DNA from: an uncultured Sphingomonadales bacterium
Lineage (GTDB): Bacteria; Pseudomonadota; Alphaproteobacteria; Sphingomonadales; Sphingomonadaceae
NCBI GenBank assembly: GCA_937863505.1
Contig: CALMGC010000051.1
Span: 1 to 32,961 of the forward strand
Direction of reading: 5' to 3'
Length of the DNA stretch: 32,961 bases
Both the position numbers and the translations under genes were made by a program. Shown in pieces: positions 16,982 to 25,115 of the stretch (within the stretch, counting starts at the first letter, position 1; every line of letters starts with the position of its first letter). The notes beneath the pieces were generated by a model, which saw only the letters and a program-made list of their open reading frames with translations, had not been told where the DNA came from and searched no databases.

Positions 16982-18244
16982 TTAATGAAGCGTTCCCGTC
17001 GCCTCGCCCGCCGCGCGGAACATCGCCAGCACCGTCGCGATCTGCTCGGGTGTGTGCTCGGCGCAGAGCGAGCAGCGGAGCAGGAAGGTCCCCGCCGGCG
17101 TCGCGGGCGGACGCGCCATGTTGACGTACAAGCCGCCTTCCAGAAGCGCCTGCCACATCGTCACCGCCTGTTGCTGGTCGTGGAGGATCACCGCGACGAT
17201 CGCGGACTGCGGCGTCGCCGTGCCGAGCGTGAAGCCCATTTCGGTCAGCCCCGCGTGAAGCGCGCGCGCATTGTCCCACAAGCGGCGGCGCTTGTCGTGC
17301 GCGAACATCAGCTTGCGGATCGACGCGGCGGCGGTGGCGACCACCGACGGAGGCAGCGAGGCGGTGAAGATATACGGGCGGCAGGCGAGCCGCATCACTT
17401 CGAACTTGGGATGGTTCGACACGCAGAAGCCGCCCACGGTGCCGACCGACTTGGAAAAGGTGCCGATGACGAAATCGACCTCGCCCTCCAGCCCCTGTTC
17501 CTCATACACGCCGCGCCCGTTGGGGCCGTAGAACCCCATAGAATGCGCTTCGTCGGACAGCGTCATGGCACCGTGTTTCTTCGCGACAGCAACCATTTCC
17601 GCCAGCGGCGCGACGTCGCCGAGCATCGAATATACGCCCTCGAGCACGACGAGCTTGCCCGCTTCCCTAGGCAGGCGGGACAGGCGACGATCGAGGTCCT
17701 CGACCGAATTATGGCGAAACCGCACGACCTCCGCATTGCCGAGCGCGCAGCCGTCATAAATCGACGCGTGGCTGTCCGCGTCGAGGATGATGTACTCGCC
17801 CTTGCCCGCGATCGTCGACAGGATGCCGAGGTTCGCCTGATAGCCGGTCGAGAACACCATCGCGTGCCGCGCGCCGTAGAACGCCTTTAGCGCCTCCTCC
17901 GCTTCGACATGGTCGCGAAAGGTGCCGTTGAGCATCCGGCTGCCGTTGGTGCCCGTCCCGAACCGGTCGAGCGCGTCCTTGCCCGCCCGGATCACGTCGG
18001 GGTCGAACGTCATGCCCATGTAATTGTAAGTGCCGAGCAGGATCGTCTTCCTGCCGCGGATCACCGCCTCGGTTGGCGAGGTGACCTCGTCCATGACGAT
18101 CCCGAACGGATCGCGCACCCCCGTCGCGAGCAGCGCCTCGCGCTCGGCGATGAGCGGGTCGAACTTGGAGAACAGGTCGCGCTCGGGAGCGACCGGGGCC
18201 GGGTCGAGCGTCAACGCCTCCGCTTGAAAGCCTGCCTCCGTCAT
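16982..18244 (-). CDS. spt: Serine palmitoyltransferase
   Basis: SPT condenses L-serine with palmitoyl thioester to 3-ketosphinganine, the committed step of sphingolipid synthesis. The 420-residue alpha-oxoamine synthase is almost collinear with the soluble Sphingomonas paucimobilis enzyme: LLGTYNYMGMTFDPDVI, GTGTNGSRMLNGT, the PLP-stacking histidine in LDADSHASIYDG, LSDEAHSMGF, the PLP lysine K265 in GTFSKSVGT, and VNMARPPATPAG near the C-terminus. No membrane segment is present, as in the bacterial homodimer. The start at 18244 overlaps the stop of the upstream carrier-protein gene as ATGA. The adjoining carrier protein and CerR-like gene support assignment over 2-amino-3-ketobutyrate ligase or ALA synthase. 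Confidence 0.95.
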   Translation of the reverse strand: MTEAGFQAEALTLDPAPVAPERDLFSKFDPLIAEREALLATGVRDPFGIVMDEVTSPTEAVIRGRKTILLGTYNYMGMTFDPDVIRAGKDALDRFGTGTNGSRMLNGTFRDHVEAEEALKAFYGARHAMVFSTGYQANLGILSTIAGKGEYIILDADSHASIYDGCALGNAEVVRFRHNSVEDLDRRLSRLPREAGKLVVLEGVYSMLGDVAPLAEMVAVAKKHGAMTLSDEAHSMGFYGPNGRGVYEEQGLEGEVDFVIGTFSKSVGTVGGFCVSNHPKFEVMRLACRPYIFTASLPPSVVATAAASIRKLMFAHDKRRRLWDNARALHAGLTEMGFTLGTATPQSAIVAVILHDQQQAVTMWQALLEGGLYVNMARPPATPAGTFLLRCSLCAEHTPEQIATVLAMFRAAGEATGTLH

Positions 18245-18483
18245 GCGGTGAGCTTGCCCACCGCATCGACGAGCTGGCCCACCGTCTCGATCTCCGCCTG
18301 CATGTTCATGGTAATGACGATATCGAACTCGTCCTCCACCGCCGCCACGAAGTCGAGCACGGTGAGGCTGTCCCATTCGAGGTCGCCCTGGAAGGTGGTC
18401 GCCTCGCTCAGCGCGACGCCCTTCTTGTTGAACGGCTCAATCTGGCGCGCGACGGTGTCGAAGATGTGCTGGCGGTCGGTCAT
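18241..18483 (-). CDS. Acyl carrier protein dedicated to sphingolipid synthesis
   Basis: This 80-residue acidic protein has the carrier-protein motif EWDSLTVLDF, with Ser39 as the expected phosphopantetheine site, and the downstream helix AAVEDEFDI. It differs from housekeeping AcpP, which carries ADSLDTVE, so it is a specialised carrier. Its gene overlaps spt by four bases. In Caulobacter and sphingomonads such a carrier next to spt is thought to present the palmitoyl chain to the enzyme; that role here rests on context. The ATG at 18483 has an AGGA ribosome binding site; an upstream in-frame extension to 18537 looks non-coding. Confidence 0.9.
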   Translation of the reverse strand: MTDRQHIFDTVARQIEPFNKKGVALSEATTFQGDLEWDSLTVLDFVAAVEDEFDIVITMNMQAEIETVGQLVDAVGKLTA

Positions 18484-18546
18484 GGGGAATCCTGATTGCC
18501 GGATGAATGCGGCGCGGTTGCGGCGGCGCGGCGCCACGTCCGCGCG

Positions 18547-22525: not shown

Positions 22526-22900
22526 ATGGAAGTGATCAAATTCGGATCGGACGACCTGGAGAACAGGCTGGCCACGGACCCGTCGCGCGCCGAGCTGCTG
22601 CCGTTCGGGGCCATCATGGTCAACCAGCAGGGTGACGTGATCCGCTACAACCACGTCGAGTCGGGGATCAGCGGGCGCAACCCGGGCGACGTGGTCGGCA
22701 AGAACTTCTTCAACGACGTCGCCCCGTGCGCGAAAGGGCAGGCGTTTTATAATCACTTCTTCCGCGCCGTCGCCGACGGCCATGTCAACACCATGTTCGA
22801 CTACCAGTTCGACTACAAGATGCAGGCGACCAACGTACGCATCCACATGAAATCCGCCGATGCCGCCCGCGGCATCTGGATCTTCATCAAGCGCGTCTGA
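22526..22900 (+). CDS. pyp: Photoactive yellow protein (PYP)
   Basis: PYP is a small soluble PAS-domain blue-light receptor that binds p-coumaric acid as a thioester on a cysteine and undergoes a trans-cis photocycle. This 124-residue protein aligns along its whole length with Halorhodospira PYP (125 residues). The opening FGSDDLEN and the core GKNFFNDVAPC are conserved. Chromophore residues are all kept by position: Y41 (Y42), E45 (E46), S49 for T50, R51 (R52) and C68 (C69), as is the FDYQFDYKM strand, and the protein ends IFIKRV. The AAGGA site at 22512-22516 is well spaced to ATG 22526. The gene is first of three on the plus strand and faces the ligase that should activate its chromophore. 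Confidence 0.96.
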   Translation: MEVIKFGSDDLENRLATDPSRAELLPFGAIMVNQQGDVIRYNHVESGISGRNPGDVVGKNFFNDVAPCAKGQAFYNHFFRAVADGHVNTMFDYQFDYKMQATNVRIHMKSADAARGIWIFIKRV

Positions 22901-22928: not shown

Positions 22929-23306
22929 ATGAAAGAGACACCTATCGAGAGGGCGGGCGATTACGACTCCGACCTGTTCTCGCCCGAGGAGTTGGAGATG
23001 ATGCACGGCGCGCAGGGCGTGACGGAAGAAGCGGACTTGCACCACGACGCGGTCGAGTTGCAGCGGCAATACGCCGCGCTCGCGCGCATGGTGGCGGAGG
23101 GCGGCGAGCGCGAGCGGCAGCTGCGCGCGCTGGTCAACGAGCTGAGCCTCCTCGCCAAGGCGAACGAGCAGCAGCGTTCCTATCACGAGCAGACGCAGAA
23201 CCTCGCCCGGCTGGTGCTGGCGAGCAGCGAGCGCGAGCTCCACCTCCAGCAATGTCTGGAGGCGGTCCGCAACGTCGCGTTGACGCGCGTCCGCAACATC
23301 GTCTGA
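22929..23306 (+). CDS. Coiled-coil protein of PYP locus, unknown function
   Basis: A 125-residue protein starts 28 bases after the PYP stop with a GGAG site upstream of ATG 22929. It has an acidic N-terminal segment (DYDSDLFSPEELEMM, about residues 11-25) and then an almost unbroken amphipathic helix from about residue 40 to the end, rich in Glu, Gln, Arg and Leu with heptad-like spacing (ERERQLRALVNELSLLAK). There is no signal peptide, membrane segment or known enzymatic motif. I do not recognise the family. Position and spacing suggest co-transcription with PYP, so it is a candidate signalling partner or scaffold; this is inference. Confidence 0.8.
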   Translation: MKETPIERAGDYDSDLFSPEELEMMHGAQGVTEEADLHHDAVELQRQYAALARMVAEGGERERQLRALVNELSLLAKANEQQRSYHEQTQNLARLVLASSERELHLQQCLEAVRNVALTRVRNIV

Positions 23307-23319
23307 GCCGAGCGACCCC

Positions 23320-23829
23320 ATGCAGACTGCGACCCAAGCCGCCGCTTCGCCCTTCCGCGAGCTGCGCCACCTCGACCAGCAAGCGCAGGACCGGCTCGCC
23401 GACCTCGGTGCGACACTCGCGCCGATGCAGGCGCTGAAGCGCACCGGGCGTCGCCCGTTGCTGTTCAACGGCACCACCGTCGCGACGATGTGCGGGGTCA
23501 CCCCGGCGCTGCCCTTCTGGTACGAGTTGAACGTCCACCGGACGGTGATCGGCAGCTATGTCAGCGACATCCGGCTGTTCCACAAATCCCCCGACCTCCA
23601 CGACCTGTTCTGGGTCGAGGAGCATGACGAGCTGGAAGCCGTGGTCAGCTATCTCGAACGCTACGACCCGGCGGGGGACGTCGGCGTACCGCGCGAGATG
23701 ACGACGCGCGCAGGCTCGCCGGCGGAGCTGGCGCTGTGGACGGCGCGGTTGCAGATGCAGGTCGATGCGATCACGCAGCACTACCGCGCGCTGGCGGGCG
23801 AGCTGTTGCACACGCTCACCAAGGGGTAA
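23320..23829 (+). CDS. Conserved-looking protein of PYP locus, no recognised family
   Basis: This 169-residue soluble protein starts 13 bases after the coiled-coil gene and ends inside a terminator stem. N- and C-terminal parts look helical (RELRHLDQQAQDRLADLG; WTARLQMQVDAITQHY). The middle, about residues 45-110, is aromatic and hydrophobic, with PFWYELNVHRT, SYVSDIRLFHK and DLFWVEEHDELEAVV. This pattern suggests a compact alpha/beta ligand- or partner-binding domain. No catalytic signature or membrane segment was found and I cannot name a family. It is third in the PYP operon, so a role downstream of light sensing is a reasonable guess. Confidence 0.8.
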   Translation: MQTATQAAASPFRELRHLDQQAQDRLADLGATLAPMQALKRTGRRPLLFNGTTVATMCGVTPALPFWYELNVHRTVIGSYVSDIRLFHKSPDLHDLFWVEEHDELEAVVSYLERYDPAGDVGVPREMTTRAGSPAELALWTARLQMQVDAITQHYRALAGELLHTLTKG

Positions 23830-23865
23830 GGCGCACTCCTCTCCTTGGTGGGGAGGAGCCTTACC
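23825..23865. terminator. Shared palindromic terminator of the PYP operon and the facing ligase gene
   Basis: The outer stem GGTAAGGC (23825-23832) pairs with GCCTTACC (23858-23865), and inside it TCCTCTCC (23837-23844) pairs with GGGGAGGA (23850-23857) with one G-U pair around a short loop. The plus-strand stop TAA (23827-23829) and the minus-strand stop (23861-23863) sit at mirror positions in the outer stem. It should act in both directions, though no long T tract is seen. Confidence 0.75.
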
Positions 23866-25036
23866 AGTCCGCGGGCTTCCCCATCGCGTTGACCGGTAAC
23901 GCCCCGCCCAGCGCGAAGCGGCGCGGGCGTTCGGGCGCGGAAAGGCGGTCGCCGCACCAGCGGTCGAGATTGCCCAGCAGCGCTTCGTCCTCGGCGCCCA
24001 CCGGCACGACAAACGCCTTCAACCGCCCCGTGTCCGCCTCCAGCCGCACCACCGCGTCCGCCACCCCGGCATGGGCGAGCAGGGTGTCGCGCACCCGCGC
24101 GGGAAAGACGTTGACGCCGCCGACCTGCACCGCGCCGTCGCGGCGGCCCTCGACCACAAAGTGCCGCTTGCCGAGCCAGCGGAGGTGATCGGGCACCCCG
24201 GCCGCGAGCCGGGTTCCATCGGCCAGCAGCCGTTCCAACCGCCCGTCCTGTGCGGACCAGCCGTCCAGCAGTGTATAGGCCGCGCCCTCATGCTCGCGCA
24301 CCGCGACGCCGCCCGTCTCGCTCGACCCATAGACCTCGACCAGCCGTTCCAGCCGTTGCCCGCGCAGGCGATGCGCGAGCTGCGACGGCATCGGCGCGGT
24401 TGAGGTGACGCCGGTGACGCCGTCAGGAAAGGCGAGCAGCGAGCGGGCGAGATAGGCCCAGTGCGTCGGCGTCCCGATCACCAAGGTGGCCGGCGCGGCG
24501 GCGCGCACCGCTTCCGCGCCCGTCACCTCGACCAGCTCGCACCCGAGCAGGTCGGGGAGCAGCGCGGTGAAGATCGCGCCATAGATGTGATGTCCCGGCA
24601 CCAACGCGACGACGCGGCGGGTGCCCGCGAACCGCGCCGCCCAGCCGTCCGCTTCCGCGCTAAGATCGGCGATCGCGTGGGTGCAGCGCTTGGGCTCGCC
24701 GGTCGACCCGGAGGTGCGGAAGGTCAGGTGCGTTCCCGTCGCCGCCAGTGATTGCTCGATCAGGTCGCACCAATCACCGACGCTCGGCAGGGCGAGCAGG
24801 TAATCCTCCACGCCGTGCTCGTGGAGATGAAAGAATTCGTTAAGCGCGGAGGCGACGTCGAGCCGTTCGAGGCTGTCGAGATCGAGCCCGCCCTCGTCGA
24901 CCCGCGTGGCCTCGCTCCAGCCCGCCCGCCCCAGCGTCGCCGCCGACCGCCCGCGCGACCGCGCCAGCTCGGCGGCGAGGAGGTCGAGCACGAGCCGCCG
25001 CACCGCGCGACGCGACAGGACAGGGGTGGACGCCAT
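23861..25036 (-). CDS. pcl: PYP-type 4-coumarate ligase with N-terminal acyl-carrier-protein-like domain
   Basis: This 391-residue ANL-superfamily enzyme should adenylate p-coumarate and form a thioester for PYP chromophore attachment. It matches the short 4-coumarate-CoA ligase subfamily known from PYP clusters. The ANL part has the P-loop TSGSTGEPK (about residues 108-116), GHHIYGAIFTALLP, YGSSETGGVAV, the GGVNVFPARV hinge region, and the last-lysine motif MGKPADW at the extreme C-terminus. Residues about 10-98 look like a carrier protein: LDLDSLERLDV with Ser55 in the DSL position, then NEFFHLHEHGVED and SVGDWCDLIEQSL. A strong AAAGGAG site precedes ATG 25036. No tyrosine ammonia-lyase gene adjoins it. 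Confidence 0.9.
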   Translation of the reverse strand: MASTPVLSRRAVRRLVLDLLAAELARSRGRSAATLGRAGWSEATRVDEGGLDLDSLERLDVASALNEFFHLHEHGVEDYLLALPSVGDWCDLIEQSLAATGTHLTFRTSGSTGEPKRCTHAIADLSAEADGWAARFAGTRRVVALVPGHHIYGAIFTALLPDLLGCELVEVTGAEAVRAAAPATLVIGTPTHWAYLARSLLAFPDGVTGVTSTAPMPSQLAHRLRGQRLERLVEVYGSSETGGVAVREHEGAAYTLLDGWSAQDGRLERLLADGTRLAAGVPDHLRWLGKRHFVVEGRRDGAVQVGGVNVFPARVRDTLLAHAGVADAVVRLEADTGRLKAFVVPVGAEDEALLGNLDRWCGDRLSAPERPRRFALGGALPVNAMGKPADW

Positions 25037-25115
25037 GCTCGCTCCTTTGCCCTTCGATGGGCCCGAGCGATTAAGCGCCGACGCGGTTAACGAAGGGTAA
25101 GCGGCTGTCGGTTGC

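Follow-up and report, generated by a model that had tools for sequence, protein, structure and literature searches.

FadD22-type didomain enzymes adenylate an aryl acid and hold it on a carrier domain of their own, an arrangement like the one proposed here for the p-coumarate ligase (pCL) of the photoactive yellow protein (PYP) system; unlike pCL, their carrier is C-terminal and their cargo goes to a polyketide synthase. The aryl-polyene acyl-ACP synthetase ApeH handles a related hydroxyaryl acid, 4-hydroxybenzoate, which it reportedly adenylates and transfers to ACP with no CoA intermediate (PMC8253772). A flexirubin cluster encodes the ligase FlxY, which produces free 4-coumaroyl-CoA in vitro (PMC3992019). 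The known pCL family itself, described by the TIGR02372 model, is drawn as a plain CoA ligase: an operon review presents it as a CoA ligase with demonstrated activity and p-coumaryl-CoA as the donor (PMC12826048), and a second PYP paper likewise calls it a CoA ligase (PMC9664959). A carrier domain is mentioned in neither of these two papers, both of which concern PYP gene neighbourhoods, and a literature search that covered few subscription papers and not the original biochemistry of pCL returned none that describes one.

The window, meaning the whole stretch of 32,961 nucleotides analysed, contains a real gene of this family at 23861-25036 (-), with a Shine-Dalgarno-like AAAGGAG (25042-25048, -) upstream of its ATG start. 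The 391-residue product matched TIGR02372 with 351.8 bits, above the curated cut-off of 334.7, and aligned to positions 2-384 of the 386 in the model. Since this match spans the whole model, the N-terminal 98 residues belong to the family model and do not represent a local fusion; the protein is a full-length pCL, and it differs from the family as usually drawn in having an N-terminal carrier domain. The adjoining gene at 22526-22900 (+), convergent with the ligase, encodes a PYP (TIGR02373, 156.3 bits, cut-off 143.05) with the Y...E and APC residues of the chromophore site, and this protein is the proposed acyl acceptor. A PYP-like gene adjoins the ligase in all 20 of the 20 distinct related loci. 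Two small genes located between PYP and ligase, at 22929-23306 (+) and 23320-23829 (+), gave no significant family match; for the product of the latter, a relative at 34% occurs at 1946-2218 of another PYP locus, L044. Locus L048 (4876-8323) displays four PYP-like sequences, in two similar pairs, around one divergent ligase.

The first-pass annotation had proposed that the first 98 residues of pCL (24743-25036, -) read like an acyl carrier protein, pointing to LDLDSLERLDV and SVGDWCDLIEQSL, both of which lie in the N-terminus as described. The profile search it had called for gave a divided answer for the window protein by itself: residues 1-99 showed a weak match to an ACP model (NF006031, E 0.021), while the search of this domain against Pfam returned no match at all. 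A missing Pfam match was rejected as proof that no carrier domain exists, given that the family profile is clearly positive. Using a profile built from 19 family N-domains against all PDB chains, we found that essentially all top matches are carrier proteins (best E 8.7e-5), their phosphopantetheine serine aligning with that of the family, and a second profile of 16 N-domains again retrieved carrier proteins from the PDB (E 3.2e-6). In agreement with this, hhalign comparison of the family N-domain with six carrier proteins gave a score of 34.6 (probability 87%), far above the controls (at most 14.1 for 50 column-shuffled alignments and 15.4 for the reversed one). The PP-binding family PF00550 matched ten out of ten further members and was the top Pfam family in nine of them, all at or below the gathering score; the best of these ten reached 20.8 bits and so equalled, without exceeding, the printed threshold (20.8). 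Such scores in single members are probably why the domain is unannotated. On profile comparison, then, residues 1-98 of pCL are homologous to acyl carrier proteins, with which they share the DSL motif, and from which they diverge in scoring at or below the gathering threshold and in a conserved Trp89 in the last helix. Descent specifically from the aryl-polyene carrier proteins was unsupported, the genome's own AcpP-like protein being the one that scored best. A separate carrier protein (18241-18537, -; PP-binding, 33 bits) lies beside a serine-palmitoyltransferase-like gene (16982-18376, -) identified from its translation, and these two genes probably serve ordinary sphingolipid synthesis.

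The predicted 4'-phosphopantetheine attachment site within the DSL motif is Ser55 (codon AGC, 24872-24874, -). Homologues were collected from genomes and plasmids, most of them by genome search and from the plasmid collection, whereas the single-sequence contig scan gave one relative. Across 22 full-length homologues, the window pCL included, the N-domains share a mean pairwise identity of 33.5%, and no column of the domain other than Asp54 and Ser55 is invariant. The Asp54-Ser55 pair is also invariant in 64 of the 64 sequences below 90% identity (69/69 overall), in an extended alignment that comes in large part from one genus, that of genome G1244. The suggestion that the domain is common to the whole subfamily held throughout this sample, which contains none of the classic Halorhodospira and Rhodobacter enzymes by name; the TIGR02372 model itself spans the N-domain. 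An apparent loss of the domain in locus L089 was discarded, because a frameshift falls just before the P-loop and the DSL motif is intact in another frame; this gene is either a pseudogene or an assembly error. The ligase of locus L093 is cut by the contig end. The codon for Ser55 is AGY in about three separate lineages of the tree and TCN elsewhere, which implies that the serine has persisted across two codon sets that no single step connects. An invariant serine of this kind is what would be expected of a phosphopantetheine site. Within the genus of G1244, the ligase occurs in 44 of 62 genomes, several of which have two copies, and it is rare elsewhere.

The catalytic part that follows is an adenylate-forming (ANL) domain, for which PF00501 matched pCL with an E of 3.6e-15. 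Its P-loop, FRTSGSTG (residues 106-113; 24698-24721, -), comes directly after the carrier domain, followed by the YGSSET motif (residues 236-241; 24314-24331, -) and by Lys387 in PVNAMGK (23876-23878, -), which we take to be the C-terminal catalytic lysine of ANL enzymes. G110, Y236, G237, S239, E240 and K387 are all invariant in the 22 homologues. This part had been estimated at about 290 residues, and its length of 293 bears out that it is short. Only 102 residues, nearly all of them carrier domain, precede the P-loop strand in pCL, against 133-208 in ApeH, EntE, FadD and CaiC; the usual ANL N-lobe (the first 130-180 residues) is absent and the carrier domain occupies exactly that place. This exact replacement is also an argument for a different reading, in which the carrier-derived domain has become a structural cap that stands in for the missing lobe of an ordinary CoA ligase with an unmodified Ser55. 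The CoA-ligase activity assigned in the literature (PMC12826048) and the single-member scores at or below the Pfam threshold are in line with such a cap. A cap, however, does not need an Asp-Ser pair as its only two invariant residues, nor a serine retained across two disjoint codon sets, and we consider this reading unlikely.

To place the ANL part among known enzymes, we compared it with ApeH, CoA ligases and EntE. In a maximum-likelihood tree with a small outgroup, the pCL and ApeH sequences grouped together (100/99), apart from the CoA ligases and EntE; the ANL part of pCL does not fall inside the ApeH group, and forms its own clade (100/99) next to it. The best NCBIfam model for E. coli ApeH is TIGR02372, aligned only from model position 98 on. 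By these sequence comparisons ApeH appears to be the closest relative of the pCL ANL part among those tested, a kinship that favours pantetheinylation, loading in cis and hand-over by pCL. The two systems differ in that ApeH keeps the ANL N-lobe and works with the separate carriers ApeE and ApeF, whereas pCL has its carrier as an N-terminal fusion and would finally deliver to the cysteine of a photoreceptor. The same comparison bears on an intermediate reading, in which pantetheinylation and loading of the arm do occur but amount to a side or relay step, with p-coumaroyl-CoA as the main product released, or in which the domain chiefly serves for docking of PYP or of a second protein. The CoA-ligase activity of the characterised enzymes (PMC12826048) and the free 4-coumaroyl-CoA obtained with FlxY (PMC3992019) agree with it; on the other side, direct loading of a carrier is reported for the relatives that came closest to the ANL part in these tests, and PYP and the signalling genes of the PYP neighbourhood are the only partners that recur beside the ligase in the loci with annotation. 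We regard it as quite unlikely.

AlphaFold2 was run with an input of two sequences, both at full length and for the N-domain alone. The models place helices at 9-26, 55-68, 76-80 and 86-100, which fits the carrier helix pattern, at a low pLDDT of about 53. The full-length pCL model, of the same low confidence (pLDDT about 53), matched ANL enzymes in a fold search, while Foldseek returned no significant match for the isolated N-domain model, again of low confidence. This empty fold search, together with the E of 0.021 and the absent Pfam match of the window pCL alone, is what speaks for a chance resemblance of an unrelated helical domain that happens to carry a DSL motif, a reading rendered highly improbable by two family profiles at E 8.7e-5 and 3.2e-6 whose match lists consist almost wholly of carrier proteins, with the controls far below. 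Approximately four residues lie between the P-loop strand and the last helix of the carrier domain, a short spacing that weakens the case for the arm reaching the active site of its own enzyme.

We consider it fairly likely that p-coumarate ligases of the PYP type consist of two domains and load themselves, the p-coumarate held on the arm being passed to the PYP cysteine. In this mechanism, Ser55 of the N-terminal carrier domain would receive 4'-phosphopantetheine, probably through the AcpS of the cell; an ACPS-family phosphopantetheinyl transferase gene is present in the genome. The shortened ANL domain would then adenylate p-coumarate with ATP and, as we infer, transfer it to the thiol of the pantetheine arm that the enzyme itself carries, so that p-coumarate is probably loaded there and not only on free coenzyme A. 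Finally, thioester exchange would acylate PYP at its chromophore cysteine from the p-coumaroyl-S-pantetheinyl arm. This functional half of the proposal, in which pantetheinylation, cis loading and hand-over would proceed with no free coumaroyl-CoA, is consistent with the evidence; what the sequences show is the carrier homology, the Asp-Ser invariance, the ANL motifs, the AcpS-family gene and the linkage to PYP. A fragment of an aromatic ammonia lyase gene was also found in the genome, at a contig end.

PYP is a model photoreceptor, and a chromophore held on a carrier arm, if true, means that the usual activation scheme needs changing. On balance it seems probable that the whole photoreceptor-activating family, long drawn as CoA ligases, consists of self-loading carrier-ligases that attach the dye from a built-in pantetheine arm, and that chromophore attachment shares its logic, and probably its ancestry, with aryl-polyene biosynthesis. 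If so, a phosphopantetheinyl transferase would be needed for heterologous production, the ligase would be a tool to place thioester chromophores on proteins, and the chromophore supply of a light sensor would be linked to the enzymes of pigment biosynthesis.
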